In this document: one piece after another, positions 2,250 to 30,152 of the stretch | How the letters are laid out: every line of letters starts with the position of its first letter | How positions within the stretch are numbered: position 1 is the first letter of the stretch | Source of the DNA: Gammaproteobacteria bacterium | Lineage (GTDB): Bacteria; Pseudomonadota; Gammaproteobacteria; Pseudomonadales; Azotimanducaceae | Reading direction: 5' to 3' | Assembly: GCA_002726655.1 (NCBI GenBank) | Contig: PBRP01000019.1 | Location: forward strand, 53,877 to 91,308 | DNA length: 37,432 nt | Made by a program: the position numbers and the translations under genes | The notes under the pieces: model-generated | What the model saw: the letters and a program-made list of their open reading frames with translations, nothing else | Told to the model about the DNA's origin: nothing | The model's database searches: none

Positions 2250-3218
2250 TTACACCAGCCAGCGAGGCCAGGGTGGATGGACTGAATATTCGCAGACACC
2301 ATAACCACGTTCGCCGGTCTCTTCAACTTCGAAGTCAAAGAATGGCTCGTAGCAGTCGAGGCGGTTCTCCAGGTCATTTTCACCACGATCCCAGAGTTTT
2401 ACCTGCCCGTATTTGCGCCCCGTTCGAACGTGTATGGTTTCACCATCCGGCATTTCCAAAGTGTACCTGAAAGCTGCAGCATCACGCTGATTGTCGGATT
2501 TCAGAACCTCGCAGGAAGCACTGAGCATAGCTCTTGAGCCATTGGCATCTGAAATGAAGCCACCGAAAGGTCCATCAGGCTGATGTACTCCAAAAACATT
2601 AATGTGCTTATCCGCCAACTGAATGGAGGGCCAGTAATGGTTGGCGATATTTTGCTGCGAATAATCCCAAGGTGGCTCATCCGCAAACCGGGTCGACCAG
2701 GAATGGTCCCTGTGAGACCAGGAATCCAACTGGCGGGTTTCACCCTTGCAGGGTCCGCCTCTGATCTCAAATGGCCCCGTGCAATGCAGTCCCTGTTCAA
2801 AATGGCCACCATAATAGTGACCATGGCTGAGTGGATTTCCGTTAACACTGTCCTCGTAGTCAAATACAGGGAAGCGACCTTTAAAGTTCAGGTCAAAGCC
2901 AAAACGTGGTCCGTCAAAGGTGATCCTGATTTCTTCCAGCGGTTTAACCACTTCATAGGTCAGAAGGCCATCAGTCCAGGGACCCTGATCCGCTTCCAGG
3001 GTCAAAGGATACTTATTTCCGTACTGCTGCTGAACACCATCGATAACGTAGAGCGCCTCAAATCGCCCCCAGCCCTTGTTCGTTAGCGTGAAGTGGTTGA
3101 TGCCAAATATATTTGCCTCACGGTCCACTACACTGACCCAGAGCGTGTCACCCCAGAAACCTGCGCTCATGTCTTCAGGCGCTTCATGCCTGTATTCGTC
3201 TTCCGCTTTCACTACCAT
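2250..3218 (-). CDS. RDHSW-motif protein, DUF7064/DUF7065-like (paralogue 1)
   Basis: 322 residues with no signal peptide or membrane segment. The sequence is rich in beta-strand patterns and aromatic residues. The signature is SHRDHSW (R170, D171, H172, S173, W174), preceded by EIRGGPCKG. It ends in a Trp/Pro-rich tail (HPPWPRW). I recognise it as resembling the DUF7064/DUF7065 pair of domains, a two-barrel architecture I associate with the CrtC/AttH lipocalin-like fold. That assignment rests on memory of the motif, and the function is not established. It is closely related to the next gene upstream (3298-4305): both share NIFGINHF or DIFGINHF, FDFEVEETGERGYG and the HPPWPRW or NPPFPRW ends. 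GAGG lies about 7 nt before the ATG. It is probably co-transcribed with its paralogue and the molybdenum enzyme. Confidence 0.85.
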   Translation of the reverse strand: MVVKAEDEYRHEAPEDMSAGFWGDTLWVSVVDREANIFGINHFTLTNKGWGRFEALYVIDGVQQQYGNKYPLTLEADQGPWTDGLLTYEVVKPLEEIRITFDGPRFGFDLNFKGRFPVFDYEDSVNGNPLSHGHYYGGHFEQGLHCTGPFEIRGGPCKGETRQLDSWSHRDHSWSTRFADEPPWDYSQQNIANHYWPSIQLADKHINVFGVHQPDGPFGGFISDANGSRAMLSASCEVLKSDNQRDAAAFRYTLEMPDGETIHVRTGRKYGQVKLWDRGENDLENRLDCYEPFFDFEVEETGERGYGVCEYSVHPPWPRWLV

Positions 3219-3297
3219 GATTTTTCCTCAAATAGCATTTAAGATTATAACTAGAATTATCTTACGAACTTAACTCTTCACCAGCACCATGTAAAAT

Positions 3298-4305
3298 TTA
3301 ATAGCGCCACCTTGGGAATGGTGGATTGATCGAGTATTCCGCACACCCATATCCACGCTCGCCCGTCTCTTCCACTTCGAAATCGAAGAAACCTTCATAA
3401 CAGTCGAGTAAACACTCAGCGTCATTTTCCCCCCGCATCAATCCATTTACTGACTGGGCGTACTTGCGTCCAGTTTTGACGTGGATAACTTCACCATCGG
3501 GCAAAGTGAATTGATAACGGAAGCTCATTGCTGAGCGGCCATCGTCTTCAAGGCGACAATCAAGACACTCAGCACCTTGTATGGGCCGCGATCCATTCTT
3601 GTCGGACAGGAACCCACCAATACTAGACCGCTCTGGATTCACTGCTTTGAAAGAGGGGCTCATATAGCCGAACGCGTTCAGATGCATGCTGTCAGTCTGA
3701 ATCGAAGGCCAGTAGTGTCCCAATGACTGTTCTCTGGTGGCAGGCTTATTAGGTTCCCAGGGAGAGCCACCACGAAAACGGTCTGTCCAGGAATGATCAC
3801 GGTGAGAATAGCAGTCAATTGTCCTCAGCCCGGCGCGCGGACCACCACGAACTTCGAAATCTCCATTACACTGAAGCCCCTGCTCGTAGTGCCCCCCATA
3901 CTCCCCGGCAGATTTAAGCGGGTTACCGCCAATACAATCGTTATAGTCAAATACTGGAAACCGCGCCTTAAACGTCACGTCGAATCCATACTTTTCATTG
4001 TCAGCTGTGATTCTGAGTTCTTCCTGGGGTTTGATCACCTGGTAGGTCATAGAACCACCATCGGTCAGGACATCGAACTTACCAATATCATCCCAGGGCA
4101 CTTTGTTTGCCCAGGGCATGGGGATTCCGTCAATCACGAGGCAGGTGCTGAATCGCGCATACCCCTTGTTGGTTACGTGAAAGTGATTGATACCGAAAAT
4201 ATCCGCTTCACGATCACAGAATGAGAACCAGAGGTTGTCACTCCAGAGCCCATCTGATCCTTCTGGTGCAGGGTGCAAATACTCGTCATCGTCTAAAATT
4301 GTCAT
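3298..4305 (-). CDS. RDHSW-motif protein, DUF7064/DUF7065-like (paralogue 2)
   Basis: 335 residues, a close tandem paralogue of the downstream gene. It has SHRDHSW at about residues 167-173, a FEVRGGPRAG segment just before it, and the same C-terminal FDFEVEETGERGYG block. The ATG at 4305 is preferred over the in-frame TTG three bases upstream because GAGG sits 7 nt before the ATG. It heads a probable three-gene minus-strand operon with a 79 nt gap to the next gene, and it diverges from the plus-strand VOC gene. The tandem pair shows local duplication of this family. Enzyme, binding protein and structural partner all remain possible. The invariant charged and aromatic RDHSW patch argues for a catalytic or ligand site. 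Confidence 0.85.
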   Translation of the reverse strand: MTILDDDEYLHPAPEGSDGLWSDNLWFSFCDREADIFGINHFHVTNKGYARFSTCLVIDGIPMPWANKVPWDDIGKFDVLTDGGSMTYQVIKPQEELRITADNEKYGFDVTFKARFPVFDYNDCIGGNPLKSAGEYGGHYEQGLQCNGDFEVRGGPRAGLRTIDCYSHRDHSWTDRFRGGSPWEPNKPATREQSLGHYWPSIQTDSMHLNAFGYMSPSFKAVNPERSSIGGFLSDKNGSRPIQGAECLDCRLEDDGRSAMSFRYQFTLPDGEVIHVKTGRKYAQSVNGLMRGENDAECLLDCYEGFFDFEVEETGERGYGCAEYSINPPFPRWRY

Positions 4306-4552
4306 CAACTATCCTCAGGTCATAATTATTGGAGTTTGTCTATTCTGCTCGGATAGTAACAATATTTTATCACGTGTTGCAATTTCATATGGCACAAACA
4401 AATGGCTTGTAGTTAAATGTAATTGGTAGTATCCATGGTGGTCCATAAATGGGGCTGAGGAATTCGGCTCACAAGATCACCACTTGCAGGGCTCGCGCAG
4501 ACGAAGTAACCCTCCACTATCTAAATGCTTAACCAATGAAAGGAAGAGGACA

Positions 4553-5071
4553 ATGAGCAGTATTCTTGATTCCATCGGCCAGTACTATTTCCAGACTGCC
4601 TACGTTGTACCGGATATCGTCGCGGCAGAAGACTGGTTTGGTAAAATGCTGGGCGTACCCATCTGGGCCCGCTCAGAGGTGGAACTGGGTGATACCTGCC
4701 AGTACCGTGGTCAAACATCTGACAGCGCCATGACGATCGCACTGGGCTTCGCCGGGGAAGTACAAATTGAGCTGATACAGCCCGTCAAGGGCAAGAGCAT
4801 CTATACAGAATTTCAGGATCAGGGTCGCAGTGGTTTGCATCATATCGCCTTTGTCGTTCCGGAATATGATGAGGTAATCGCCGCATTTGAAGGCTGTGAG
4901 TTGCTCGGCCAGGGCTCCCTGTCTGATGGGCTGGTAAGATTCAGCTATTTTGATTGCAACAACAATCACTCTTCAGTTATTGAGATTCTCGATTTTAGTG
5001 AAGCGGTCATGGCTGGTATGGATATGATGAAGCAACAATGCAAGGAATTATCAGCAGCCAAGAGTACCTAG
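4553..5071 (+). CDS. VOC/glyoxalase-fold protein
   Basis: 172 residues. Two beta-alpha-beta-beta-beta modules typical of the vicinal oxygen chelate superfamily are visible. The first starts at FQTAYVVPDIVAAEDWF and has ELIQP. The second has LHHIAFVVPEYDEVIAAF and ends in IEILD. Gln, His and Glu at these places are the usual metal ligands. The pattern is closest to Glyoxalase_4 or methylmalonyl-CoA-epimerase-like proteins, but the substrate cannot be read from the sequence. The start is the ATG at 4553, with GGAAGAGGA just upstream. A longer open frame back to 4484 lacks a ribosome site. It leads a plus-strand run of six catabolic genes and could epimerise, isomerise or cleave a pathway intermediate. 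Confidence 0.85.
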   Translation: MSSILDSIGQYYFQTAYVVPDIVAAEDWFGKMLGVPIWARSEVELGDTCQYRGQTSDSAMTIALGFAGEVQIELIQPVKGKSIYTEFQDQGRSGLHHIAFVVPEYDEVIAAFEGCELLGQGSLSDGLVRFSYFDCNNNHSSVIEILDFSEAVMAGMDMMKQQCKELSAAKST

Positions 5072-5187
5072 TTCTCCCTTGTTCTGGATAAGTGCGTGGG
5101 TATCCGCCAGACCCCAATACAATGGAACCAAATTAGTCACCGATAAACCAACAATCACAAAACCCGAATTCTTTGGAGAAACAATCA

Positions 5188-5985
5188 ATGAATGCAACCG
5201 CTGAATGGCTAGACCTTACGGGAAAAACTGCCCTCATCACGGGGTCAGCACATGGCATTGGCAAGGCAATTGCCGAAACCCTTCAGACCGCCGGCGCCAC
5301 AGTCATAGTCTCGGATATAAACGAGGAGCTTGTACAGGAGACGGCAGCGGCACTGGGGGCAGAGTCACTGCCGCTGGATGTGTCGAATGAAGAAATGGTC
5401 GATAAAGCCATCGCCGATATTATTGCCCGCCATGGGGCATTGGATATCGCCGTCAACAATGCAGGTGTATACAACGGGTTTGGTGGTCCACTTGTCGAGA
5501 TGGAAACCGACCGCTGGCGCGGCCTGATGTCCGTAAACCTCGATGGTGTATTCTACTGTTGTCGAGCCGAAGCACGCGCCATGATAGATGCGGGCAAAGG
5601 CGGGCGTATCATCAATGTCGCATCCACGCAGGCCGTTACCCCCGGCGTGGGCGTTAACTATGACGGCTCCAAGGCAGCCGTTACCCAGATGACGAAAACG
5701 ATGGCACTGGAACTCGCCAAGCACAAAATTAATGTCAATGCCCTGGCGCCTGGCGCTACCTGGGTACAGGATTTCCCGGAACCGCCCATAGACCCAAGCG
5801 CCGTACCCGCTCACAGTGGGCAACCCCTCAACGATCAGGTGGCCTCCAGGATTTCCCGCATACCGATGGAACGCTGGGGCACACCTGACGAAGTCGGTAA
5901 GGCGGCTCTTTTTTTGTGTTCCTCCATGAGTGAATACATCACCGGGGTCTACCTGCCAGTTGACGGCGGCTGGCTAACACTCTGA
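5188..5985 (+). CDS. Short-chain dehydrogenase/reductase (classical, NAD-type)
   Basis: 265 residues. The cofactor motif TGSAHGIG is at 18-25 and NNAG at 90-93. The catalytic Ser is S146 (INVAS), with Y158 and K162 in YDGSK. An acidic residue after beta-2 (SDINEE) favours NAD(H). The substrate loop between about 190 and 225 is rich in Pro. The start is the ATG at 5188, with GGAG 9 nt upstream; a TTG 15 bases earlier overlaps the ribosome site and is rejected. The likely role is alcohol/ketone interconversion on a ring or side chain. The stop codon runs into a small hairpin before the next SDR. Confidence 0.93.
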   Translation: MNATAEWLDLTGKTALITGSAHGIGKAIAETLQTAGATVIVSDINEELVQETAAALGAESLPLDVSNEEMVDKAIADIIARHGALDIAVNNAGVYNGFGGPLVEMETDRWRGLMSVNLDGVFYCCRAEARAMIDAGKGGRIINVASTQAVTPGVGVNYDGSKAAVTQMTKTMALELAKHKINVNALAPGATWVQDFPEPPIDPSAVPAHSGQPLNDQVASRISRIPMERWGTPDEVGKAALFLCSSMSEYITGVYLPVDGGWLTL

Positions 5986-6001: not shown

Positions 6002-6051
6002 GGCAAAATTTTAGTATCCCGTATCGGTACCACATTACAGAGGTGAACTTT

Positions 6052-6783
6052 ATGGATAGTTTGACAGGCAAGAATGCTGTTATTTTCGGTGGGAGTTCCA
6101 ATATTGGACTGGCAATAGCCCACCGGTTCGCCAATGAGGGCGCCAATGTCACAATAGTGGCTAGAAATGAGGACAAGCTAAAGGCGGCAGTCGCATCCAT
6201 CGGTCATGGTGCCACCTATGCCCAGGTCGATGCTGCAGATGATGATCAGGTTGCAAAATTCTTCGAGCCCTTCGAGCGAGTCGATCTACTGGCGACCTGT
6301 GCCGGCTCCTTCGTGTTTGGTGCCATCGATGAGCTTCCAGTATCCGAGTGGGAAGAACTATTCGCACCCCGCTTTTTTGGACAGATGCGTGCCTGCCACT
6401 ATGCGGTGCCAAAAATGCCCGCGGGAAGTGTGATCATGCTTTGTTCAGGTATCGCTGCACGCGCAGGCATAGTCGAATATGCAGGTGGCGCTGGCCTGTG
6501 TGGTGCAGTTAATTCCATGGGCAAAGCCATGGCAATGGAACTGGCACCCAGAGAAATACGCGTCAATGTCCTGTCTCCCGGACTGATAATAGACCGCCCG
6601 GCCCATGAGGATCTGAAACTTGACGATCCCGTCAACAGCCTGCGTCGCGAATTTGTTGAGCGAATCCCCATGGGCCGACCAGGATTCCCGGAAGACATGG
6701 CAGAAGCCGCTATGTTTCTGGCCAAATGTGATTACGCGACAGGCATGGTACTTGATGTCGATGGCGGCTGGACAACCATATAA
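6052..6783 (+). CDS. Divergent SDR-fold protein lacking the catalytic Tyr and Lys
   Basis: 243 residues. The Rossmann core is intact: FGGSSNIG at 12-19 (Asn replacing the usual second Gly-loop residue), VARNE after beta-2 suggesting NADP(H), a C-terminal LSPG segment and a final DVDGGW. The active site is degenerate. The NNAG block is TCAG, and S132 is present (MLCSG). Aligning MAMEL with the MALEL of the neighbouring SDR puts G146 where the catalytic Tyr should be and C150 where Lys should be. Y143 lies three residues off, with no Lys at spacing 4. The start is the ATG at 6052 with GAGGTG 6 nt upstream; the GTG inside that site is rejected. It could be a non-redox SDR, a binding partner, or an enzyme with an altered mechanism. 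Confidence 0.88.
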   Translation: MDSLTGKNAVIFGGSSNIGLAIAHRFANEGANVTIVARNEDKLKAAVASIGHGATYAQVDAADDDQVAKFFEPFERVDLLATCAGSFVFGAIDELPVSEWEELFAPRFFGQMRACHYAVPKMPAGSVIMLCSGIAARAGIVEYAGGAGLCGAVNSMGKAMAMELAPREIRVNVLSPGLIIDRPAHEDLKLDDPVNSLRREFVERIPMGRPGFPEDMAEAAMFLAKCDYATGMVLDVDGGWTTI

Positions 6784-6829
6784 TATCCACATACCAACAA
6801 CCCAAATTTTTACACAATTGAACTAGAGA

Positions 6830-6850: not shown

Positions 6851-6852
6851 AT

Positions 6853-8751
6853 ATGAAACTATTTGAGCCTATTAAAGTCGGACCCATGACCTTCAAGAAC
6901 AGGATTTATCACCTGCCCCTTGGTGAACCTGGACACCGTAGTCAAACCGCTTTGAACTACTATTCCGCACGCGCAGAGGGTGGAGTGGCAGCGCTCACCA
7001 CGGGTGGTATCGCCAATATGGAGATACTTCGTCACCCGACCAAAGAACTGAAGCGATTCGCACAGACCATCCACGACACTGCAGATGACTGTTATGTCGG
7101 CACCCAGTCTCTCGCTATCTACGGCCCCGAGAAAATAGATAAACGCCCCCTGACACCTTCCGGAGGCTGGTCACCGGCAACGGAACAATCCATTTCCGCA
7201 GACTGGCCTGACCCGAGACCGGTTGAAATTTCAGTCGAGGAAATGCATCAGTACACGGCCTGGCTGGCGGAAGCGGCTTACAACCAGCGGGAAGCGGGAT
7301 TTGATTTCATGGAACTGCACGCTACCCATGCCTACATCTGGCGACAGTTTCTCTCGCCCATGGACAATCACCGGGAGGATGAATACGGTGGACCGATTGA
7401 GAACCGGGTCCGCTGGATGACTGAAACCGTTGAGGCCATCCGCAAATCAGTGGGAGACGATTTTGGCATTACCTTCAGGCTTGCTGCTATGGAGCCCGAA
7501 CATAATGGCATCTCACTGGGAGATTCCAGCCGCGCTGCTCAGCTGCTTGAAGAGGCCGGCGTTGATGCGCTGATCATCTCTGAGGGAGCCAACAGCCACA
7601 ACCGTGGATTTATCTCCTCCTGCGTTCCCCTGATGATCTCATTCGATCGCAACTGTTTTGCGCACTGGGCGGGAGCCATTAAGAAGGTCGTTGATATCCC
7701 TGTCATCGCCGTGGGAAGAATAACGCAACCAGCCGAGGCTGAAGAGATTCTGCAGTCAGGTCAGGCTGATATCATCGGTCTGGCGAGAGCGTTGATGGCA
7801 GATCCGGAGTGGGCTAACAAGGCGCAGGTCGGACTCGCGGAGACAATCATCCCCTGCCTCGGCTGCAACACATGTTTTGACTATTCCCAGGGGTACGATC
7901 ACATGACCTGTGCAGTCAATGCCAGGCTCTGCTACGAAGAGCAAACTGAGTATGGGCCAGCAGAAAAAGCTCGGAAGATCATGATTGCCGGCTCCGGACC
8001 TGCTGGTATGGAAGCGGCAAGGATCGCAGCTGAGAGAGGGCATGAAGTGACCCTGTACGAAAGAGAAAGCCGACTGGGCGGACTGCTGTACGCTGCTGCT
8101 GCCGGTGAGGGTAAAGACGATGTCGATGACTTCAGAAAATATCTGGAAACAGGCATGGAACGAGCGGGCGTTAAAATAGAGCTGGAAACAGAGGTGAATG
8201 CTGAACTCGTGACCGAGGTCAAGCCGGATGCCGTGGTTCTGGCAATCGGCGCCAAACCAAGGGGGCTCAACGTACTGGGCATTGAGGGAGACAATGTCGT
8301 ACCAGCCGAAACGGCGATAACGGGCGAAGTACCCGTGGGACAAAAGGTCCTGGTTATTGGTGGCGGCATGGTGGGTCTTGAAACCGCAGAACTATTGTCT
8401 AATCAGGGCAAGGCAGTGGACCTGGTTGCCCGTAGTGAACTGGCGAGAGACTTCTCCATGTTCAACAAACCGGCAATGCTGGACAAGGTGGCAATGGCAG
8501 GCGTGATGACCCATGAATTTACAACGATTGAAGAAATCACCCCAGAAGGCGCTAGCGTAACGATCGACGGCAAGCCCCGCTTCTTCAAGGTGGATACGAT
8601 CGTTCTTGCCATTGGCTATGACGCGGACAAAGAATTGGCAGATTCTCTGAAAGAACAGGTGGCTGACATACATGTCATTGGTGATGCCAACGGTCATGAC
8701 AGGTTCAGGGAAGCTATCATAGAAGGTCATGAAGTCGGCCGGAACCTCTAG
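6853..8751 (+). CDS. OYE/2,4-dienoyl-CoA reductase/trimethylamine dehydrogenase-like flavoprotein, copy 1
   Basis: 632 residues in three parts. An FMN TIM barrel (about 1-330) has H156, H159 and Y161 in LHATHAYIWRQFLSP. A [4Fe-4S] motif has C335, C338, C341 and C353 (C-x2-C-x2-C-x11-C, the trimethylamine-dehydrogenase-like spacing). The C-terminal FAD/NAD(P) domains carry GSGPAG (380-385) and a second dinucleotide fold GGGMVG (503-508). Relatives reduce enoyl or dienoyl-CoA double bonds, or desaturate steroid rings (BaiCD and BaiH in gut clostridia). The HGY tyrosine motif appears as HAY. The 21 nt just upstream of the start are identical in the second copy, evidence of a tandem duplication. 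A direct role in hydride transfer to or from an enone or enoyl-CoA is inferred. Confidence 0.93.
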   Translation: MKLFEPIKVGPMTFKNRIYHLPLGEPGHRSQTALNYYSARAEGGVAALTTGGIANMEILRHPTKELKRFAQTIHDTADDCYVGTQSLAIYGPEKIDKRPLTPSGGWSPATEQSISADWPDPRPVEISVEEMHQYTAWLAEAAYNQREAGFDFMELHATHAYIWRQFLSPMDNHREDEYGGPIENRVRWMTETVEAIRKSVGDDFGITFRLAAMEPEHNGISLGDSSRAAQLLEEAGVDALIISEGANSHNRGFISSCVPLMISFDRNCFAHWAGAIKKVVDIPVIAVGRITQPAEAEEILQSGQADIIGLARALMADPEWANKAQVGLAETIIPCLGCNTCFDYSQGYDHMTCAVNARLCYEEQTEYGPAEKARKIMIAGSGPAGMEAARIAAERGHEVTLYERESRLGGLLYAAAAGEGKDDVDDFRKYLETGMERAGVKIELETEVNAELVTEVKPDAVVLAIGAKPRGLNVLGIEGDNVVPAETAITGEVPVGQKVLVIGGGMVGLETAELLSNQGKAVDLVARSELARDFSMFNKPAMLDKVAMAGVMTHEFTTIEEITPEGASVTIDGKPRFFKVDTIVLAIGYDADKELADSLKEQVADIHVIGDANGHDRFREAIIEGHEVGRNL

Positions 8752-9771: not shown

Positions 9772-11667
9772 ATGAAACTTTTTGAGCCTATTAAAGTCGG
9801 ACCCATGACCTTCAAGAACAGGACCTACCACCTACCCCTTGGGAATCCTGGTCACCGAGATGCAACCGCCCTGAACTACTACTCGGCACGAGCTAGGGGT
9901 GGTGTTGCGGCGCTCACCACGGGTGGTCTGGCCAATATGGAGATACTTCGTCACCCGACCAAGGAGCTTAAGCGGTTCGCGAAAACCATACACGACGCAG
10001 CCGAAGACTGCTATGTCGGCACCCAGTCCCTGGCTATCTACGGCCCCGAGAAAACAGACACCCGCCCCCTGACACCTTCCGGTGGCTGGTCACCGGCAAC
10101 AGAACAGTCCATTGCTATTGACTGGCCTGACCCGAGACCGCTTGAAATTACAGTCGAGGAAATGCATCAGTACACGACCTGGCTGGCGGAAGCTGCCTAC
10201 AACCAGCGGGAAGCGGGTTTTGATTTCATGGAACTGCATGCAACCCATGCCTACATCTGGCGACAGTTTCTCTCACCTATGGACAATCACCGGGAAGACG
10301 AATATGGCGGACCGATCGAGAACCGGGTCCGCTGGATGACTGAAACCGTTGAGGCCATCCGCAAATCAGTGGGGGACGATTTTGGCGTCACCTTCAGGCT
10401 TGCTGCGATGGAGCCTGAGCACAATGGAATCTCCCTGGGAGATTCCTGCCGTGCTGCCCAGTTGCTTGAAGAAGCCGGTGTTGATGCATTGATCATCTCT
10501 GAAGGTGCCAATAGTCACAACCGCGGATTTATCTCCTCCTGTGTGCCGCTGATGATCTCATTTCCACGCAACTGTTTTGCAGACTGGGCGGGTGCCATTA
10601 AGAAGGTCGTGGATATCCCGATAATCGCTGTAGGAAGAATATCCAATCCTGATGAAGCAGAAGATATTCTCCAATCTGGTAAGGCAGATATCATCGGCAT
10701 GGCAAGAGCTCTGATGGCTGATCCTGAGTGGCCCAACAAGGCGCAGGCTGGACTCTCGGAGACAATAACTCCCTGCCTTGGTTGCAACACATGCTTTGAC
10801 CGATCCAAGTACGATCATATGAGCTGTGCCGTCAATGCCAGGCTATGCTATGAGGCGGAAACGGAGTTTGGGCCAGCCGAAAAAACGCGGAAGATCATGA
10901 TTGCCGGCTCTGGACCTGCCGGTATGGAAGCGGCAAGGGTCGCGGCTGAAAGAGGTCATGATGTGACCCTGTACGAAAGAGATAATAGACTCGGCGGACT
11001 ACTGTATGCGGCCGCTGCCGGTCATGGCAAAGAAGATGTTGATGACTTTAGAAAGTACCTGGAAACAGGAATGGAACGTGCTGGTGTCAAAATAGAGCTC
11101 GACACCGAGGTGAATGCTGAACTCGTCAACAAGGTCAAACCCGATGCCGTAGTGCTGGCTATCGGCGCCAAACCCAGAGGCCTCAATGTACTGGGGATGG
11201 AAGGAGACAATGTCGTACCCGCCGAAACGGCAATAACAGGCGAAGTACCCGTTGGACAAAAGGTCCTGGTTATTGGTGGCGGCATGGTGGGTCTTGAAAC
11301 TGCAGAACTCCTGGCCAAACAGGGCAGGGCTGTGGACCTGGTCGCACGCAGTGAACTGGCGAGAGATTTCTCAATGTTCAATAGACCAGCGATGCTGGAC
11401 AATGTGGCGATGGCAGGCGTGATGACCCATGAATTTACAACGATTGAAGAAATCACCCCCGAAGGTGCGAACGTGACCATCGGCGGCAAGACCCGCTTTT
11501 TCAAGGTGGATACGATCGTTCTGGCTATTGGTTATGACGCGGACAAGGAATTGGCGGAATCCTTAAAGCAACAGGTGGCGGACATACATGTCATTGGTGA
11601 TGCTAACGGTCATGACAGATTCAGGGAAGCTATTGTAGAGGGCCATGAGGTTGGCCGAACCCTCTAG
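9772..11667 (+). CDS. OYE/2,4-dienoyl-CoA reductase/trimethylamine dehydrogenase-like flavoprotein, copy 2
   Basis: 631 residues, with about nine in ten identical by eye to the gene at 6853-8751. All functional elements are kept: the LHATHAYIWRQFLSP barrel motif, cluster cysteines C335, C338, C341 and C352, GSGPAG and GGGMVG. The one length change is a single residue lost in the loop between the third and fourth cluster cysteines, where the sequence also differs (DRSKYDH against DYSQGYDH). Differences are spread evenly, many synonymous, with no stop or frameshift. Both copies therefore look to be under selection and may have split substrates or the two halves of a paired reaction, as BaiCD and BaiH do. 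No intact SDR follows this copy, unlike copy 1. Confidence 0.93.
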   Translation: MKLFEPIKVGPMTFKNRTYHLPLGNPGHRDATALNYYSARARGGVAALTTGGLANMEILRHPTKELKRFAKTIHDAAEDCYVGTQSLAIYGPEKTDTRPLTPSGGWSPATEQSIAIDWPDPRPLEITVEEMHQYTTWLAEAAYNQREAGFDFMELHATHAYIWRQFLSPMDNHREDEYGGPIENRVRWMTETVEAIRKSVGDDFGVTFRLAAMEPEHNGISLGDSCRAAQLLEEAGVDALIISEGANSHNRGFISSCVPLMISFPRNCFADWAGAIKKVVDIPIIAVGRISNPDEAEDILQSGKADIIGMARALMADPEWPNKAQAGLSETITPCLGCNTCFDRSKYDHMSCAVNARLCYEAETEFGPAEKTRKIMIAGSGPAGMEAARVAAERGHDVTLYERDNRLGGLLYAAAAGHGKEDVDDFRKYLETGMERAGVKIELDTEVNAELVNKVKPDAVVLAIGAKPRGLNVLGMEGDNVVPAETAITGEVPVGQKVLVIGGGMVGLETAELLAKQGRAVDLVARSELARDFSMFNRPAMLDNVAMAGVMTHEFTTIEEITPEGANVTIGGKTRFFKVDTIVLAIGYDADKELAESLKQQVADIHVIGDANGHDRFREAIVEGHEVGRTL

Positions 11668-11776: not shown

Positions 11777-12736
11777 CTAGAATATCGCATCACACAAACG
11801 TCTAAGGGCTGACAGATGCACCCCCGTTGCAATAGCCAGTAGGTTGGGTGCCGGATTCTTGTGGTCCGCGTATATCCGGTGGGATGTCTGATCAATGCCA
11901 ACACCCATCAGGAAGTTTACTGCCTTCCAGTACTCCAGCCGTGGCCTGTCTATTTCACTGCCGGTGATCTTTTCGATTCTCGCAATCCAATCATCTTCCT
12001 GCAGGTAGGCCACTCCCCGCATCGCGATCAGGTAGGCCCAGTCATCGTATGGATCCCCCAGGTGGATAAACTCCCAGTCAACGACAGCCGTAATATGCCC
12101 ATCGTGATAAAGATAATTACCGGGTCCCGGATCACCATGGACGAGGGTTACCCGGTCATTCTCCGGCGCATTATTGCGAAGCCACTGGGTCGCTTCCTCG
12201 ACCAGAGGTGATGGTTCACCCACTATGTGTGAGCGATAAGTCTCATACCACCTTTCCACCTGCTGCAGGGCAGCACCATGTGGCGCCTCTGGCATTTCAA
12301 GGAAGTCAAACACATCACTGGTCGCATCAATAGAGTGCAAGCGATGCAGTGCGGCAATATATTCATCAGCTGTATCTTCCGAGAAGGTACTCACCCCGGG
12401 CATAAAGTCCATGACAAAAAAAGGCTGTTCCAGTAGATCGCAGGACGTCTCATAGGCCAGAATCTCTGCAACCGGGTAGTCCAGTGCGTGCAGGGCACGC
12501 ATGATGTTTACTTCGTTCTCACTATCGGAGCCAAGGTGCCCCCACTGTTCAACACGTACTACAACCTTACGCTGGATCGCTGCGCCATCTTTGGCATATT
12601 CCAGGTCCAACACGAACATTGCCCGTGACTGCCCCATGGTGAGACGATTTTCGGCAACTATATCAACGCTATCATCAGCCCCCAGAACGCCTCGAAGGTA
12701 TGTTGCTAAAACAGCATGTCGCTCTTCTTTATTCAA
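11777..12736 (-). CDS. APH-family small-molecule kinase (ACAD10/11-kinase-like)
   Basis: 319 residues of the aminoglycoside-phosphotransferase fold. The N-lobe has VVVRVEQW (Arg where many kinases have the beta-3 Lys). Next come FFVMDFMPG as hinge, the catalytic HGDPGPGN (H200, D202, N207) and the metal-binding DWE (D220). Relatives fused to acyl-CoA dehydrogenases (ACAD10/11) or acting in levulinate catabolism (LvaA) phosphorylate hydroxyacyl-CoAs, so antibiotic resistance is unlikely. The start is a TTG that overlaps the stop of the upstream small-protein gene (TTGA). A GAGGTGATG stretch sits upstream and no usable ATG lies near, which implies translational coupling. It is the last gene of the run RDHSW protein, SnoaL-like protein, small helical protein, kinase. 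Confidence 0.9.
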   Translation of the reverse strand: MNKEERHAVLATYLRGVLGADDSVDIVAENRLTMGQSRAMFVLDLEYAKDGAAIQRKVVVRVEQWGHLGSDSENEVNIMRALHALDYPVAEILAYETSCDLLEQPFFVMDFMPGVSTFSEDTADEYIAALHRLHSIDATSDVFDFLEMPEAPHGAALQQVERWYETYRSHIVGEPSPLVEEATQWLRNNAPENDRVTLVHGDPGPGNYLYHDGHITAVVDWEFIHLGDPYDDWAYLIAMRGVAYLQEDDWIARIEKITGSEIDRPRLEYWKAVNFLMGVGIDQTSHRIYADHKNPAPNLLAIATGVHLSALRRLCDAIF

Positions 12737-13179
12737 ACATCACCTCGCATACCAGCCATAAACGCACCCATTATCGGCACAGATGCACCTAACTCAGTAT
12801 CAAGCTGTGAATTTAGCTCCGCCCGCAATACTTTTTGCATTGCATTCGCCAGTTCCCCAGGGTTGTTCTGCCCCCAGACCAGCAGGTTCGATGCAGCCTC
12901 AAACGGGGACGCCAGATCAAGCATGGCAATCAACTCAGCGTTATCCGCCTGCAGCAGTGTTGATCGTAATTCTTCCAATGCTGCCGCCAACCCGGTTCGG
13001 TGGTTAGCCGCCCGGTCCTCCTCCAGGGAGGCCAGAGCATATTCAAGTGCACCGACTAGTAACCCACCATTAAAGCGGGCATATTCATCATCTTTTGTGA
13101 GCGGTAGTAAGACGTCCCGAAGCGTAACAATGCTGTTCTGCAAAATTGTTGCTGCATCGGGTGGTACCGGTAATGTCAT
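12733..13179 (-). CDS. Small helical protein, putative kinase partner
   Basis: 148 residues, predicted to be nearly all helix, acidic, and without a signal or membrane span. It begins MTLPVPPDAATILQNSI. The start at 13179 is chosen because AGGAG lies 8 nt upstream; the frame stays open back to 13305 without a ribosome site. I do not recognise a named family. It looks like the 147-residue gene at 36227-36670 in length, position and pattern: an opening hydrophobic helix with L-P-R/L-x-D, a middle segment with NAELIAMLDLAS or DQRQVLDLCS, and a Leu-rich C-terminal helix. It also resembles the N-terminal module of the fusion at 27670-29139. In all three cases it directly precedes the APH kinase, and here the stop and start overlap. 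A LvaB-like accessory role is an inference. Confidence 0.8.
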   Translation of the reverse strand: MTLPVPPDAATILQNSIVTLRDVLLPLTKDDEYARFNGGLLVGALEYALASLEEDRAANHRTGLAAALEELRSTLLQADNAELIAMLDLASPFEAASNLLVWGQNNPGELANAMQKVLRAELNSQLDTELGASVPIMGAFMAGMRGDV

Positions 13180-13340
13180 CCCATGATCTCCTGTTCCTGT
13201 AGACAAGTGTTCCTGCAGACAAATATCTGCCATGTTTCTCAAGGCTCTTCTAATCGGCCTCTTCACAACTATTCCTGCACAGGCTCTTACGCGCTCTTGT
13301 CCCAACCAATCCTGGCTGGCCAGTTCCTGTCCGGGAATCG

Positions 13341-13811
13341 CTATAGGTCCATATTACCGCCTGTGATTTGCCCCAGCTGTTCTGGAGTCATCGCGGCTCT
13401 GGCATTGAGGTGTTCTTCCCAGTCATCACACATTCCCTGGGGTCCATTCCAATAATCAACTTCAAGACACACCAGACCGTCTCGAAACTCTAGACGAGAC
13501 ATACCTTCACCGCATATCCACTTGCCTTTGTTTTCGCTGTCATCAACTATCCGGACGTAAGCCATCCAGGTCATCGACATGCCGTTCTCCGAGACGAAGA
13601 TTTCCTCCGGTGGCACGCGCAAATTTCCAGCAGCTTTACCCCAGAAATCTACAACTTCCTGGTGACCACGCATTGCCTCCGCATGCCCGAGAATATCTCG
13701 CATAACAACATCTTCAGTCATGAATTGCAGTGGGGCTTCCGGTGTATCACCACCCCAACCCTCTATGAATAATCGTTTTCCAATTTCAATTTCAGCTGCA
13801 CTTACCGCCAT
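13341..13811 (-). CDS. SnoaL-like (NTF2-fold) protein
   Basis: 156 residues with the cone-shaped NTF2/SnoaL pattern. A first helix has GKRLFIEGWGGDTPEAPLQF. Then come MTEDVVMRDILGHAEAMRGHQEVVDFW and strands ending MSRLEFRDGLVCLEVDYWNGP. Members include ketosteroid isomerase, SnoaL cyclase and BaiE dehydratase; the reaction here cannot be fixed. The ATG at 13811 is chosen over a GTG six bases upstream because AAGGAG is 9 nt from the ATG and only 3 from the GTG. A C-terminal helix (MTPEQLGQITGGNMDL) extends beyond the core. It belongs to the minus-strand set with an RDHSW protein and the kinase pair, and it resembles the SnoaL-like protein at 34798-35217 (EGMSRLEF or EGMSYLEF; EVDYW or EVDYH). 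Confidence 0.85.
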   Translation of the reverse strand: MAVSAAEIEIGKRLFIEGWGGDTPEAPLQFMTEDVVMRDILGHAEAMRGHQEVVDFWGKAAGNLRVPPEEIFVSENGMSMTWMAYVRIVDDSENKGKWICGEGMSRLEFRDGLVCLEVDYWNGPQGMCDDWEEHLNARAAMTPEQLGQITGGNMDL

Positions 13812-13850
13812 CTCCACTTACTCCTTCTTCTCACCACTTGAACAGTAAGG

Positions 13851-14030: not shown

Positions 14031-15167
14031 CTAGTCTGAAAATCCTGGATAGGGTCCCGAAATAACGCATTCGAGATGACCAATACCAACGTCGGCCGGG
14101 TTATCCAGGCTGCTGAACCGGCCAAAATTTTCACACCAGGCATCTGGCCGTGACTGTGCTATGCCCTTGGGGTCGCCTATCAAGGTCGGATGGGATACGT
14201 CCCAGGTCTCCCCCTCCGCATGATCATCTCCACGGTAAACGCCTCGCCCCCAGTGATCATCATAGCCCTCCCAGTAGCCTCCGCCCTCGAGATAAACCGG
14301 GTCGGTAATATTTTCCATTAGAAACCGTTCCACAACGCCATCCTCACGCGTCATTTCCACGGTACCCCGCATAAGTCTGCGTTCGCCGGTCACAAACTCC
14401 AGGTCCTGTTCAATATTGGTGTAGGTATAGGGCTCTCGGTCATCCCCATAGGGATACATGCAAACACTCTCAAACTTTGTCAGCTGACCACTCGCATTAC
14501 GGTGAAAGTGCCAGAATATGGCTCTATCAGGTAATTTGAACCACACCCACTGGCGCAGGCCAAAGGGCTGCCCCCGGGGAAGGGGAGCCGCAACATTAGA
14601 GGGTGGACCACCGGTCGGCCCGATACCCCAGGAATGATCGCGAACACCGGTCCAGTGTTCCGGTTCCACCTCATAACGTTCACCCTTCACCTCAATCCAT
14701 CCTGTGACGTCCATGACCTGGTCATAATTACTGCGCTCACCTGCCAGTCGCCCACCAGCAAAAGTGATCTGATATTCCTCGTTGTAAGGAGGCGTAAACC
14801 CCTCCCATAAAAGGTCATAGCTGATGCCAAATTCATTCGGTTCAGCTTTGGTGCGGATACGGCGGAGACCCTCAATAATCTCAACTGACATGGCACCACA
14901 CTCCAGGTCATCAATACGGGGTCTCAGCCTCCTGGAAAAGCGCATATTATGTTGCAGGCCGCCACCGGAAACACAGGTAAATGCATCCATTACATCGTTC
15001 ACTGCATAGAGTCGCAGTGCCGAGAAAAAAGCCACACGACCCTGGTCATCTCCAAGCGTGTAGTAATAACCATCACTCCAGTGAGGTGATGTACTGTTTA
15101 CAATATCGAAGGTGACACCAGTTTGATGCCGTGGAAATTCGTCCATTTTTGTAAGATTCAATTTCAT
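14031..15167 (-). CDS. RDHSW-motif protein, DUF7064/DUF7065-like (paralogue 3, long form)
   Basis: 378 residues. The signature GVRDHSWG (R176 to W180) sits between two beta-rich halves. The first half has an FSRRLRPRIDD block shared with the protein at 16400-17623. The second half has GGGYWEGYDDHWGRGVYRG, closely matched by GGGYWAGWNDQLGRGIYRG there. The N-terminal MDEFPRHQTGVTFD also matches DELPRHQTISTFD. These two form a subfamily apart from the shorter pair at 2250-4305, which instead share NHF and GERGYG blocks. No signal peptide. It heads a minus-strand run with a SnoaL-like protein and the kinase pair, and diverges from an SDR across a 432 bp promoter region. Confidence 0.85.
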   Translation of the reverse strand: MKLNLTKMDEFPRHQTGVTFDIVNSTSPHWSDGYYYTLGDDQGRVAFFSALRLYAVNDVMDAFTCVSGGGLQHNMRFSRRLRPRIDDLECGAMSVEIIEGLRRIRTKAEPNEFGISYDLLWEGFTPPYNEEYQITFAGGRLAGERSNYDQVMDVTGWIEVKGERYEVEPEHWTGVRDHSWGIGPTGGPPSNVAAPLPRGQPFGLRQWVWFKLPDRAIFWHFHRNASGQLTKFESVCMYPYGDDREPYTYTNIEQDLEFVTGERRLMRGTVEMTREDGVVERFLMENITDPVYLEGGGYWEGYDDHWGRGVYRGDDHAEGETWDVSHPTLIGDPKGIAQSRPDAWCENFGRFSSLDNPADVGIGHLECVISGPYPGFSD

Positions 15168-17623: not shown

Positions 17624-17825
17624 CAACTAGCTCCATTTCTTTACGAGTAGCTTTCATTCTTCCACATCTAAAGGCTCCAGAACAGCAAACAAGTCTCACA
17701 CACCTAATTTCTACGTCACCGCCAGCTATTGATTCAGCAGCCAGGCTCCTTTATGGTTAAACCCTGTTTTTCCATATAATTAGTCAGGCGGCAAGGTAGA
17801 CCTAAGAATGGAGATGCCAGTTTCA

Positions 17826-24786: not shown

Positions 24787-24855
24787 TGTCTAATACCCCT
24801 TAAAGGACTGGTTATCACAACCCAATGTTGTGTTCACTTGCCGTTTCCCACCGCT

Positions 24856-26444: not shown

Positions 26445-26482
26445 AGGGGCAGATCCACAACAATGACTAGAAAGGAGACAGT

Positions 26483-27673
26483 ATGACTGGTCCACTGGAA
26501 GGTATACGAATCATTGAACTGGGACAGATGATAGCGGTTCCGGCTGCAACGCAATTGCTGGCATCCTACGGTGCTGAGATCATCAAAATTGAAAACACCG
26601 GCACCGGAGATGAACTGCGATTCTATAGCAGTAACAAAGGCGGTATAAGTGCCATGTTTGCCCATGCGAATGCAGGCAAAAGGTCAATTGCACTGGATTT
26701 GAAGGAAGAAGCCGGGAAGAAGATTCTGTGGCAACTACTGGAAACTTCTGACGCGCTTATCGAGGGTTTTCGCCCCGGCGTGCTCGCCAAGCTTGGTTTC
26801 GGGTTTGATGTCGTTAGCAGCAAGTGCCCCTCCCTGGTCTACTGTTCATCAACCGGTTTTGGACCCACCGGGCCCTACCGGGACCTGCCGGTCTATGATC
26901 CTCTTATCCAGGCACTTTCTGGGTGGGCCGGCGCTCAGCAAGTAGGAGACGACCCTACACTGGTGCGCGGGTTTGTAGCCGACAAGGTTGCTGCCACCGG
27001 CAATGCACAGGCAGTTACGGCTGCGCTGGTTAAATCAAGCCGGACAGGTGAAGGATCACACATACAACTCGGGATGCTGGAATCAAATATTGCCTTCAAC
27101 TGGACAGATGTCATGATGCACTGTTGTCTGCTGGATGATGACGCCACCCATCAGTCAAATATCCTGTCGAGTTACCGTCTCTTCAGGGCAAAAGATGGGT
27201 GGGTCAGTCTAGCTGTCAGCACCGACAAGCAGGCGAAGAATTTTTGTGAAGCACTTGATCGTCAGGACGTCATAGATAGCGGACGCTTCGCGACAGCCGC
27301 GCAGCGTGGCGCCGACATAGCAGGCTGGTTCAACACACTGCAGGAGTCGATTGAGAACTCCCTCCTGGCGGACCTCCTGGATCTCCTGATAAAGGCTGAT
27401 GTTCCTGTGGCGCCGGTTTTGTCACCGGCAGATGTGGCATCTAATCCACAGGTAGCAGCGGCTGGATTCCTGGAAGAAAAGGTTCATCCCCTGGCAGGTA
27501 AAATCAGGGGACCCAGGTCAGCGGCAAGCTCTTTCGGCGACCAACTAACACTTTGCCCTGCCCCCAGCCACGGGCAAGATGGCAGGCAGCTGCTCGATGA
27601 AATGGCTTACAGCCCAGGGGAAATTGACGAGTTAGCCGAAAAAGGCATTGTATTACTGAGATCACCATCATGA
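26483..27673 (+). CDS. Family III (CaiB/BaiF) CoA transferase
   Basis: 396 residues, the usual length. It starts LEGIRIIELGQMIAVPAATQLLASYGAEIIKIE, the family N-terminus. GKRSIALDLK and GPTGPYRDLPVYDPLIQALSG follow. D167 in FVADKVAATG fits the catalytic Asp that forms the acyl anhydride. TGEGSHIQLGMLES is the conserved linker, and the C-terminal half ends in HPLAGKIRGPRS. AGGAG is 5 nt before the ATG. The stop overlaps the next gene's start (ATGA), so translation is coupled to the kinase fusion. That link suggests the kinase acts on a CoA ester made by this enzyme. Confidence 0.93.
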   Translation: MTGPLEGIRIIELGQMIAVPAATQLLASYGAEIIKIENTGTGDELRFYSSNKGGISAMFAHANAGKRSIALDLKEEAGKKILWQLLETSDALIEGFRPGVLAKLGFGFDVVSSKCPSLVYCSSTGFGPTGPYRDLPVYDPLIQALSGWAGAQQVGDDPTLVRGFVADKVAATGNAQAVTAALVKSSRTGEGSHIQLGMLESNIAFNWTDVMMHCCLLDDDATHQSNILSSYRLFRAKDGWVSLAVSTDKQAKNFCEALDRQDVIDSGRFATAAQRGADIAGWFNTLQESIENSLLADLLDLLIKADVPVAPVLSPADVASNPQVAAAGFLEEKVHPLAGKIRGPRSAASSFGDQLTLCPAPSHGQDGRQLLDEMAYSPGEIDELAEKGIVLLRSPS

Positions 27674-29139
27674 CTCACCCAATCCTGTCGCAGGTGCTTG
27701 AATCCGTTAAGGCAGATATTTTGAATACAATCTTGCCGGAGTTAACCAGCTCTGAAGCCAAATTCTCGGCACTGATGGCAACGGAAGTCCTCTCCTATTT
27801 GTCAATGTGGGATCAATCAGCTGGAGATTTCCTGCCGGAACACGCCGCCAGGCTCACCACACTTCTCGAGGGTCTCAGCCCTGAGAAAACACAAGCTGAC
27901 GGTCATGATCATGGACATGAACTCAAGAGTGACGTGCCCGGTGGTGGCCTGGATTATGCTCCAGGCTATTTCAAAACGGCGTCAGCAGTCGACCGGGCGA
28001 TTTCACAAGCGTCGCCTGACTTTTTTATCGAGTCCAAAATCAACCCACTGGTGCTAGATACCCTGCGCCTTGACCAGGATTTATTTCAGGCGGAGCAACA
28101 GGCTCTGACGGACCGTGCCAGCAGGAACACAGCACTACTCTCAGGCATGGAAAAAAATCTGACAGATGAAATAGTCGGAGACTATCTGGCACAAAAATAC
28201 CCCTCGATACTGGATGATGGCAAGGTGGCTGGAGTAAAAAGGATTCCAGGGGGGTTTTCAAAAGACACCCATACGATTTCACAAATGACCCGGGATGGAG
28301 GCGAGTCTGAAACGCTGGTCAGTCGACGAGACCTGCCTTTCGGGCCGGGTGAAAACACAGTTGTCGATGAATATGAGTTGCTGAATAGTCTTTGTGAAGC
28401 AGGCTATCCAGTTGCAGAACCGCTGATCTGTGAACGGGACCCAGCCTATTTCGGCCAGCCGTTTATGATATCGAGAAAGATGCCTGGAGAATCCGGGACT
28501 GAAACCTGGGGATCCGACAGCAAACAGAGTGGATCAATCTGCACGAACCTCGCCGCAATACTGGCAAGACTCCACAGCGAAGACGCGGCAAAATATGGCT
28601 TCGGCACCAGATATTCTCCAAAAGACACGCTACGCGCCTATATTGAGGAATGGCAGGACCGCTGGCAGCGCCGGCGGGTACATGTGTCACCAACTCTGGC
28701 CATTGGCTTCCAGTGGCTTCTGAACAATATACCTGCTGACGTCCCACGAATATCCCTGTGTCATGGCGACGTTGGCTTTCACAATATTCTGGTTGATAAC
28801 GGGGTCATCGTGGCGCTACTCGACTGGGAGTTTGCACATGCAGGCGACGCGATGGAGGATCTGTGTTACTGCAGGAGATTCATTGAACCGCTGATGCCCT
28901 GGGACCAATTTCTTGCAGCCTACGAAGATGCCGGTGGGATCAAATTTCGCGAGCATGACGCCACCTTTTATGAAGTCTGGGGCCAGGTACGCAATGCCAC
29001 CTGTTGCGCAGTATCCTGGTATGGGTTTTTAAGTGATTCCTACCGTGCGACAAAGATGGCATATCAGGGTATTCCGCTCTATCGCCAGTTCGTTCAACAG
29101 ACAGGCGCACTGCTGCTCAAAATAAGCGAAGGAGCTTAG
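27670..29139 (+). CDS. Fusion of small helical module with APH-family kinase
   Basis: 489 residues. Residues 1-70 form a helical module resembling the separate small proteins at 12733-13179 and 36227-36670. A His-rich linker follows (HDHGH at 79-83), then a further helical region to about 165. The APH kinase domain starts near 180, with ETLVSRRDLPF as beta-3, FMISRKMPG as hinge, HGDVGFHN (H365, D367, N372) and DWE (D385). The start overlaps the CoA-transferase stop as ATGA. The stop is followed at once by the RDHSW gene. The fusion is evidence that the separately encoded small protein and kinase act together. By analogy with LvaA and the ACAD10/11 kinases, the target may be a hydroxyacyl-CoA. 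Confidence 0.88.
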   Translation: MTHPILSQVLESVKADILNTILPELTSSEAKFSALMATEVLSYLSMWDQSAGDFLPEHAARLTTLLEGLSPEKTQADGHDHGHELKSDVPGGGLDYAPGYFKTASAVDRAISQASPDFFIESKINPLVLDTLRLDQDLFQAEQQALTDRASRNTALLSGMEKNLTDEIVGDYLAQKYPSILDDGKVAGVKRIPGGFSKDTHTISQMTRDGGESETLVSRRDLPFGPGENTVVDEYELLNSLCEAGYPVAEPLICERDPAYFGQPFMISRKMPGESGTETWGSDSKQSGSICTNLAAILARLHSEDAAKYGFGTRYSPKDTLRAYIEEWQDRWQRRRVHVSPTLAIGFQWLLNNIPADVPRISLCHGDVGFHNILVDNGVIVALLDWEFAHAGDAMEDLCYCRRFIEPLMPWDQFLAAYEDAGGIKFREHDATFYEVWGQVRNATCCAVSWYGFLSDSYRATKMAYQGIPLYRQFVQQTGALLLKISEGA

Positions 29140-29141
29140 TG

Positions 29142-30152
29142 ATGAAGAATTCAACAACAATTACTGATTCAAGAGGAATTGACGGCAAGCCCCTGAGCAC
29201 CCCAGTGCCGGAAGATGAGTTCCTGCACCAGATTGATGAGAATTCACATTACGCGACAACTGAAACCTCTTACTTTGGATTCAATATACCGGAGCACCAG
29301 ATAAACGGAGAGATTTACGTCTGGTTTCACCCGCAACTGCATGTAATGAGTGCCAGTGTCTACATCTGGAAAGGATTCAAATCCAGCACGCTTGCCTGCG
29401 AGTACATCAATCACTTTGGTTTTCTGCCGATGCTTGAGGGCGATATTGACGACTATGGTATCGAAGAACTCGGTCTGAACGTAAAGGTGGTAGAGCCACT
29501 CAATGAAATAAACATAAGCTACCAGGATGAAAATCGGGGAATGGCATTTACCATTGGATACAAGGCCATTATGCCACCGGCCGGCCGACCAGGCGGTCAA
29601 CACTTCGCGCAATCCATGCGCACAAAGGGTCAACTCCAACTGGCAGGAGCAGACTATGAAATAGATGGTTATTTTACCCGTGATCGCTCATGGGCTGGGA
29701 TACGGGAGGAAACGACACGCGGTGGGCCACCCATGACCTGGATGGTTGGCGCCTTCAATGATGAACTCGCATTTCATGCACTCGCGTTCGATGACCCGGC
29801 AAAAAATCCGGAATGGCTGGATGCATATCCGGGACGGCCACCCGGCAGAAATATGATCTGGGGCTATGTCAGACGAGATGGTGAAACCATCCCACTTGAG
29901 TCGGCATCAAAACTCACAACCCGCGACACAGATGGGCTGGCACCCACCCGGTTTGACCTTGCGCTAACAGAAGTAGGCGGCCGCGAACATGAAATTACCG
30001 GCACCGTAACCGCCAGGATGCCATGGCAAACCTGGCAGAACATGAACGTCTATTTCTGCCAGACCCAATGGGAGCTCGATGGTAAGATCGGCTGGGGTGA
30101 CAGCCAGGACATACAGTACAACGACTTCGTACACAGGTTTCAGCGAAGCTAA
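29142..30152 (+). CDS. RDHSW-family protein with RDRSW variant (paralogue 5)
   Basis: 336 residues and the most divergent paralogue. The motif is TRDRSWAG (R180, D181, R182, S183, W184), so the central His is Arg. It keeps the preceding short strand (GADYEIDGYF) and the beta-rich halves, and has a distinct GGPPMTWMVGAFNDELAFHALAFDD block. AAGGAG is 7 nt before the ATG at 29142; a GTG three bases upstream is rejected. It ends the plus-strand operon CoA transferase, CoA transferase, kinase fusion, RDHSW protein. It resembles other DUF7064/DUF7065-like proteins more than its own paralogues at the N-terminus. Loss of the His suggests a different activity or a binding role. Confidence 0.82.
   Translation: MKNSTTITDSRGIDGKPLSTPVPEDEFLHQIDENSHYATTETSYFGFNIPEHQINGEIYVWFHPQLHVMSASVYIWKGFKSSTLACEYINHFGFLPMLEGDIDDYGIEELGLNVKVVEPLNEINISYQDENRGMAFTIGYKAIMPPAGRPGGQHFAQSMRTKGQLQLAGADYEIDGYFTRDRSWAGIREETTRGGPPMTWMVGAFNDELAFHALAFDDPAKNPEWLDAYPGRPPGRNMIWGYVRRDGETIPLESASKLTTRDTDGLAPTRFDLALTEVGGREHEITGTVTARMPWQTWQNMNVYFCQTQWELDGKIGWGDSQDIQYNDFVHRFQRS

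Follow-up and report, generated by a model that had tools for sequence, protein, structure and literature searches.

We describe here a 37,432-nucleotide stretch of the genome of a marine Gammaproteobacteria bacterium (contig PBRP01000019.1, positions 53,877 to 91,308), referred to below as the window, which carries five homologous genes whose products share an RDHSW or RDRSW motif (RDxSW). These RDxSW proteins are probably phosphate lyases of the AttH/CrtC fold, of the same kind as 25-phosphosteroid lyase (25-PSL), with a predicted role in the kinase-coupled dehydration of alcohols. That is, a kinase of the aminoglycoside phosphotransferase (APH) fold, encoded adjacent to the lyase gene or elsewhere in the genome, would use ATP to phosphorylate an alcohol that is hindered and probably tertiary; the RDxSW protein would bind the phosphoester in its barrel and eliminate phosphate to leave an alkene, so that kinase and lyase together would constitute an ATP-dependent dehydratase. 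Several of the loci also have a molybdenum enzyme near by, of the type that forms alcohols of this sort using water. The RDxSW family itself is real and strongly expanded in this genome.

A two-enzyme route, in which a kinase and a separate lyase dehydrate tertiary alcohols at the expense of ATP, was elucidated in a single anaerobic degrader of sterols. In Sterolibacterium denitrificans, according to the portion of the report considered here, 25-hydroxysteroid kinase uses ATP to phosphorylate the C25 alcohol, which is tertiary, and a lyase then turns the resulting phosphoester into the delta-24 alkene (PMC8449060). The same portion states that the lyase had not yet been identified by the authors (PMC8449060), and an excerpt of another paper calls it putative (PMC11061730). 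The crystal entries of 25-PSL (9fzn, 9g2i, 9g4c) were released in January 2026, and 9g4c is described with phosphate and desmost-1,4-diene-3-one, an alkene.

The open frames of the five genes were verified at the coordinates given here. The motif is RDHSW in four genes on the minus strand and RDRSW in one gene on the plus strand. Two of the minus-strand genes form a short class, namely 2250-3218 (322 aa, termed the P2 type) and 3298-4308 (336 aa, the P3 type), both with the motif at residues 170-174, and two form a long class, 14031-15167 (378 aa) and 16400-17626 (408 aa); all four are predicted phosphate lyases. The plus-strand gene is of the DUF7064 type and extends over 29142-30152, or over 29139-30152 if the GTG at 29139 is the start codon. 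In the five-way alignment, where identity to the first sequence is 20-22%, residues H29, Q157, R180, D181, S183 and W184 (29142-30152 numbering) are invariant.

All five proteins match one family, Rv3169_fam (NCBIfam NF053593; cut-off 150 bits), with an E value of 2e-7 or better, which is the outcome of a profile search that the preliminary description of this DNA had proposed as a check. The long proteins exceed the cut-off, as members of the Rv3169 family would (263.8 bits for 14031-15167 and 215.6 bits for 16400-17626), whereas the other three fall below it, with 45.8 bits for 2250-3218 (E 4e-12), 38.3 bits for 3298-4308 (E 8e-10) and 30.8 bits for 29142-30152 (E 1.5e-7). The Pfam family DUF7064 (PF23212; gathering cut-off 24.7) is passed by 29142-30152 alone, with 56.1 bits, and the DUF7065 match of 14031-15167 lies below the gathering score, so the kinship with both DUF families that had been suggested at first sight is borne out. 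The short pair stays below the cut-off of every Pfam and NCBIfam model. Profile-profile comparison joins the short class to the long class at E 4e-16 and the DUF7064 type to the long class at E 1e-17, and together with the Rv3169_fam matches it places the homology of the five genes of this island beyond chance. When the 21 full-length copies of the genome are placed in a tree, the long clade (n=7) includes 14031-15167 and 16400-17626, while the short clade (n=11) holds 2250-3218 and 3298-4308 in separate parts; the rest are a DUF7064-type pair, to which 29142-30152 belongs, and one divergent copy (L041). The deep joins between the classes are unsure owing to long branches, but the three gene shapes that had been distinguished by eye correspond to the long, short and DUF7064-type clades.

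The link to 25-PSL is direct for the long class. When 14031-15167 was compared with the sequences of the PDB by phmmer, 25-PSL was the only protein below E 1 (E 9e-29), and likewise 25-PSL was found for 16400-17626 (E 2e-22). For the short class, the link rests on Rv3169_fam, on profile-profile comparison and on the fold. The genes had been proposed to form an undescribed enzyme family, which can no longer be maintained, because Rv3169_fam covers two of the five and because a crystal structure exists of a relative, 25-PSL, in complex with phosphate and a sterol alkene. With such a known core and with named families around it, this is not a new kind of enzyme. The short class forms a branch for which neither Pfam nor NCBIfam provides a curated name, and our search of the open literature on DUF7064, DUF7065 and Rv3169 returned no paper carrying either DUF name.

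The fold agrees with the sequence matches. The AlphaFold model of 3298-4308, made from an alignment of 50 sequences, has a mean predicted local distance difference test score (pLDDT) of 91.5 and a predicted template modelling score of 0.89. In this model, RDHSW lies at the end of strand 160-175, a long one with which the first half closes, in line with the earlier placement of the motif between two beta-rich halves. Its top match among solved structures is 25-PSL (Foldseek E 1.5e-11; VIA Z 26.1, root-mean-square deviation 3.0 over 288 residues), followed in VIA by AttH (Z 24.7), kievitone hydratase (22.9) and Diels-Alderases (20-21), with further rows from 9. The first match of the 29142-30152 model, a weak one, is also 25-PSL (Foldseek E 6.8e-13; VIA Z 23.7), and the AttH/CrtC-type fold that had been suggested for the family is thus supported by the short-class model and, with low confidence, by the DUF7064-type model. 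In the structural alignment, the identity of the short and DUF7064 classes to 25-PSL is 15-16%. On the other hand, the fold is shared over nearly the whole chain, the long genes are of the same length class as 25-PSL, and six residues, D9, H14, Q149, R175, D176 and W179 (25-PSL numbering), are each conserved in 107 or all 108 of the sequences aligned (25-PSL, 21 sequences from this genome and 86 from other loci, so that the short class dominates). One long-class paralogue (L031:9039-10262 on contig C109) has KDHSW in place of RDHSW. The motif reads RDRSW in 9fzn and RNRSW in 9g4c, and we take the latter to be a substitution of the motif aspartate (D176N). This difference in the ligand-bound entry bears on the placement of the motif in a pocket, which the preliminary description had proposed to map. 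In the proposed reaction, D176 would act as acid or base, and R175, H14 and Q149 would bind the phosphate.

The same fold is the basis of another explanation, namely that the RDxSW proteins resemble CrtC or kievitone hydratase in function and add or remove water directly, free of phosphate. AttH (2ich), kievitone hydratase (7a0q) and the Diels-Alderases Phm7, Fsa2 and CghA all have the two-barrel lipocalin-like fold, with Z 20-25 to the short-class model, and their chemistry is hydration or pericyclic and phosphate-free. In addition, a profile of the five window proteins finds kievitone hydratase at E 0.003, where the motif reads YDRQWG, with the aspartate and tryptophan shared. However, the residue before the aspartate is tyrosine in kievitone hydratase and arginine in 25-PSL and the RDxSW proteins, so that the aspartate and tryptophan can be regarded as features of the fold at large, and the arginine as one of the RDxSW family. 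Since the nearest solved relative is 25-PSL, since the motif arginine is absent from kievitone hydratase and since the genes track APH kinases, as detailed below, direct hydration, which the preliminary description had suggested by analogy with CrtC, is less likely than phosphate elimination, and we regard it as quite improbable. Membership of the CrtC hydratases was itself rejected, as none of the five proteins has a profile match to the Pfam family at E values up to 1, and hydratase function is retained as a rival on account of the fold. A pericyclase function, for which the fold match to the Diels-Alderases (Z 20-21) is the evidence, was likewise set aside.

The window contains three APH kinases, all with an intact HGDxxxxN motif. 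K1 (11777-12736, minus strand; HGDPGPGN, DWE) is the third gene on from the long-class gene 14031-15167, which heads a row on the same strand that continues with a SnoaL-like protein (13341-13817, minus strand), a small protein (12733-13305, minus strand) overlapping the start of K1, and K1 itself, the proposed alcohol kinase. Its best PDB match is 3ats, which we take to be Rv3168, and 9fsg and ACAD11 are also matched; ACAD11 is a match of K2 as well. K2 (27670-29139, plus strand; 489 aa, HGDVGFHN, DWE) lies directly 5' of the DUF7064-type gene, and its final base is the first base of the GTG start of that gene at 29139. K3 (35284-36246, minus strand; HGDPGPGN, DFE) has as its closest RDxSW gene a cut-off copy about 4 kb away, beyond the window, and the kinase closest to 16400-17626 is about 3.7 kb away. 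The window kinases share the APH fold and the HxDxxxxN motif with the kinases of known dehydrations primed by phosphorylation, that is, 25-hydroxysteroid kinase, LvaA and ACAD10/11. Among these dehydrations is a 4-hydroxyacyl-CoA chemistry, and the lyase of the ACAD systems is an acyl-CoA dehydrogenase-like domain, not a lipocalin-like barrel.

The proximity of RDxSW and APH genes is not confined to the window. In this genome, 5 of the 24 APH genes are within 3 kb of an RDxSW gene, compared with 0.94 expected (P 0.002, where the linkage P values presume random placement and shared descent is not accounted for). Across the eight other genomes of the order with matches, 8 of 21 copies are near an APH gene, and 8 of 77 APH genes are near a copy compared with 0.42 expected (3 kb). 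A scan of short-class loci over named genomes comprised 64 loci, which are not independent and some of whose flanks end at contig ends; 29 of them have an APH gene within 5 kb, on the same strand in 27 of the 29, and 29 APH genes fall in the first 5 kb of flank versus 5 in the second. By group, with the loci sorted by record title, such a gene is present in 3/3 loci of Azoarcus/Aromatoleum, 8/10 of Deltaproteobacteria/Binatia, 1/1 of Thermoflexaceae, 2/3 of Dehalococcoidia, in the single locus L066, and in 11/26 of Acidimicrobiia and other records. Six whole genomes (those of L047, L049, L058, L062, L063 and L064), four of which were already known to have a kinase within about 3 kb of the short gene, were also counted. 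They hold 82 APH genes and 64 RDxSW genes, and 17 of the former are no more than 3 kb from one of the latter, compared with 1.2 expected, all 17 on the same strand; one of these pairs, with the L058 kinase, had already been counted at that distance in the 64-locus scan, and the Azoarcus/Aromatoleum pairs of that scan are slightly more than 3 kb apart. For the three Azoarcus/Aromatoleum genomes, an APH gene is found within 5 kb for 14 of 16 RDxSW genes. The kinases found in the loci carry HxDxxxxN (Y for H once) in 33 of 34 cases, the exception being at L108. In S. denitrificans, by contrast, the part of the report considered here gives a single kinase gene and states that the authors saw no lyase candidate near it (PMC8449060), while many copies are present in this genome and the two genes are often adjacent here and elsewhere.

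It should be noted that several results weigh against the phosphate lyase assignment. An APH gene lies within 3 kb of only 6 of the 26 RDxSW copies in this genome, of which just one is of the short class; within the window, no APH kinase lies within 7 kb of the short pair. No APH gene was found within 5 kb at 35 of the 64 short-class loci (contig ends cut some flanks), and among Gammaproteobacteria, which are close kin, one was found at 3 of 20. At one of these, the Acidimicrobiia locus L074, no kinase was found, and the scan of three genes upstream showed all of them to belong to purine synthesis. A search of PDB sequences by hmmsearch with the profile of the short class alone gave nothing related, 25-PSL included, up to E 10. 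Finally, the 29142-30152 model is of low confidence (pLDDT 69). Some of these results would also be expected if only the long and DUF7064-type members were phosphate lyases and the short class, which makes up most of the copies, had been taken over for some other reaction. In favour of this, the short class lies below all family cut-offs, hmmsearch does not link it to 25-PSL and it is mostly without adjacent kinases in this genome. However, its orthologues lie near kinases in Azoarcus/Aromatoleum, Deltaproteobacteria, Binatia and Thermoflexaceae, and the six residues D9 to W179 listed above are kept, and consequently we consider such a recruitment rather unlikely.

The Acidimicrobiia loci (L068, L074, L082 and others) are also of note for their arrangement, since two layouts occur, some having the kinase just upstream, with a 10-base overlap in five loci.

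A conserved cluster was identified in distant genomes, and it is through its orthologues there that the short pair is linked to a kinase. At seven loci (L057-L061, L065 and L066), a P2-type gene comes before and a P3-type gene after a single APH gene. The P2-type genes are 69-73% identical to 2250-3218 and the P3-type genes 64-70% identical to 3298-4308. The row of L057 and L058 also holds genes for a PNPOx-like protein, a zinc-dependent dehydrogenase, a glyoxalase-fold protein and a short-chain dehydrogenase/reductase (SDR). In Azoarcus sp. Aa7 (L062), the row consists of an SDR, a kinase, a zinc-dependent dehydrogenase, a glyoxalase-fold gene, one more gene whose counterpart in L063 is a TetR regulator, the short gene, an FAD-dependent dehydrogenase and SDRs. 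The kin of these cluster parts in the window, namely the glyoxalase-fold gene at 4484, the SDRs at 5173 and 6043, the PNPOx-like gene at 32921 and the FAD dehydrogenase gene at 33420, are spread over 30 kb. A paralogue pair conserved around one kinase might represent two steps or a heteromer. It also fits the explanation that the RDxSW proteins act on kinase products without eliminating phosphate, that is, hydrolyse, isomerise or merely bind them. The kinase linkage and the conserved basic and polar residues would suit any role in handling phosphoesters, and the short class has a large invariant set of its own. Nevertheless, the only closely related protein of known structure bears the name of a lyase, its structure was determined with phosphate and an alkene, and its conserved residues are kept, which makes a role free of elimination very unlikely in our opinion.

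The expansion of the family can be seen from the gene counts. This genome has 26 RDxSW genes, 21 of full length and 5 cut by contig ends, where the count omits a 43-residue match in C147 and treats two rows of C52 as one gene. With one model and threshold, Rv3169_fam has 22 matches in this genome, while 8 of 36 other genomes of the order, evenly drawn from a larger group, have any, with a maximum of 5. Another model gives 22 matches in each of two nearby metagenome-assembled genomes (MAGs) of Gammaproteobacteria, 3 to 9 in Azoarcus/Aromatoleum and 4 in Thermoflexaceae. The number of paralogues suggests that they serve several substrates or positions.

The genome is similarly rich in molybdenum enzymes. 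It encodes 8 near-full-length type II dimethyl sulfoxide (DMSO) reductases, of the ethylbenzene dehydrogenase and steroid C25 dehydrogenase (S25DH) type, as well as two partial ones, all below the curated cut-off. The number of near-full-length enzymes equals that of the S25DH-like genes, eight, given for S. denitrificans in the part of the report considered here (PMC8449060). At E 1e-100, there are 9 in this genome, and only 3 of the 36 genomes of the order score (with 4, 1 and 3); the two MAGs have 11 and 6, the Thermoflexaceae genome 11, and Azoarcus/Aromatoleum 0 to 2. The enzyme on contig C109 is closest in the PDB to ethylbenzene dehydrogenase (E 2e-187) and adjoins L031, a paralogue of 16400-17626; both of these lyase genes have SDR and EthD-like neighbours. 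A type II DMSO reductase is also near five short-class loci (L058, L093, L100, L108 and L110), and at L108 the lyase, kinase and molybdenum enzyme follow in that order on one strand. As a separate observation, contig C147:15211-34664 carries four catalytic subunits of type II DMSO reductases in a row, the first with a beta subunit and a chaperone.

As to the substrates, a bulky hydrophobic compound, as the preliminary description had supposed, is plausible, and we infer a steroid or another polycyclic isoprenoid. Steroids are likely the favoured choice on hints from context: the 25-PSL precedent, the molybdenum enzymes, a BaiCD-like flavoenzyme (below cut-off) and the occurrence of the genes in Azoarcus sp. 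Aa7, which is a bile-acid degrader according to the excerpt considered (PMC8399759). The steroid ring-cleavage marker KshA (PF19298) has no match in the genome, but the control genomes are equally silent and hence the result is uninformative.

More tentatively, and with somewhat less than even probability in our estimation, phosphorylation followed by elimination may be a general way of dehydrating unactivated alcohols across several phyla, with the RDxSW paralogues serving different positions of steroid-like molecules. The two ancient paralogues of the unnamed short subfamily (P2 and P3), which flank one kinase, may then act in sequence or as a heteromer, and in this marine lineage the system would have grown to some 26 lyases, with a coupling to at least 8 molybdenum hydroxylases that work independently of oxygen. 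If the phosphate lyase assignment is true, genes annotated as hypothetical, as DUF7064/7065 or as Rv3169 family, together with the adjoining 'aminoglycoside phosphotransferases', could be re-annotated as pairs of phosphate lyase and alcohol kinase in several phyla, and marine bacteria may be able to break down steroids and terpenoids related to them by a route whose hydroxylation step does without oxygen. The mycobacterial Rv3168-Rv3169 genes, which form an operon repressed by a TetR regulator according to the part of the source considered (PMC5340868), would also gain a testable function.

The other neighbours noticed at first, a molybdenum enzyme, the SnoaL-like protein with the APH kinase, SDRs and two type III CoA transferases, are all present in the window. 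The molybdopterin oxidoreductase (72-2210, minus strand; 712 aa), directly beside the short pair, belongs to a formate dehydrogenase-like branch, below the cut-offs of the 25 families listed, and not to the type II DMSO reductase branch; one paralogue of it (43% identical, at L036) is near another short tandem. On the plus strand are the glyoxalase-fold protein (4484-5071), a recurrent short-class neighbour in distant genomes, an SDR (5173-5985), also recurrent, and a second SDR (6043-6783) that is 55-66% identical to an SDR neighbouring the short-class gene at L057, L058, L060, L062 and L063. The PPOX/PNPOx-like protein (32921-33388, plus strand) is 51-54% identical to the product of the gene between the P2-type lyase and the kinase in L057 and L058, and the FAD-binding dehydrogenase (33420-34808, minus strand) is 43% identical to the one following the short lyase in L062. 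A type III CoA transferase (26483-27673, plus strand) precedes K2.

The small protein at 12733-13305 has no Pfam family and is 26% identical to that at 36227-36670 (minus strand), which precedes K3, overlaps its start and has no Pfam family above cut-off; the two are perhaps kinase partners. They have no family match above cut-off, and a suspected resemblance to LvaB, the partner of LvaA, was not confirmed. A sixth RDxSW gene (C11:94076-94318, L046) is located 2.8 kb to the right of the window, where the contig end cuts it before the motif, and directly follows a molybdenum enzyme of 724 residues that is 40% identical to 72-2210. Within the window, two closely similar flavoenzymes of the old yellow enzyme type (6853-8751 and 9772-11667) are present with an SDR between them, and the best NCBIfam match of the former is the bile acid enzyme BaiCD.

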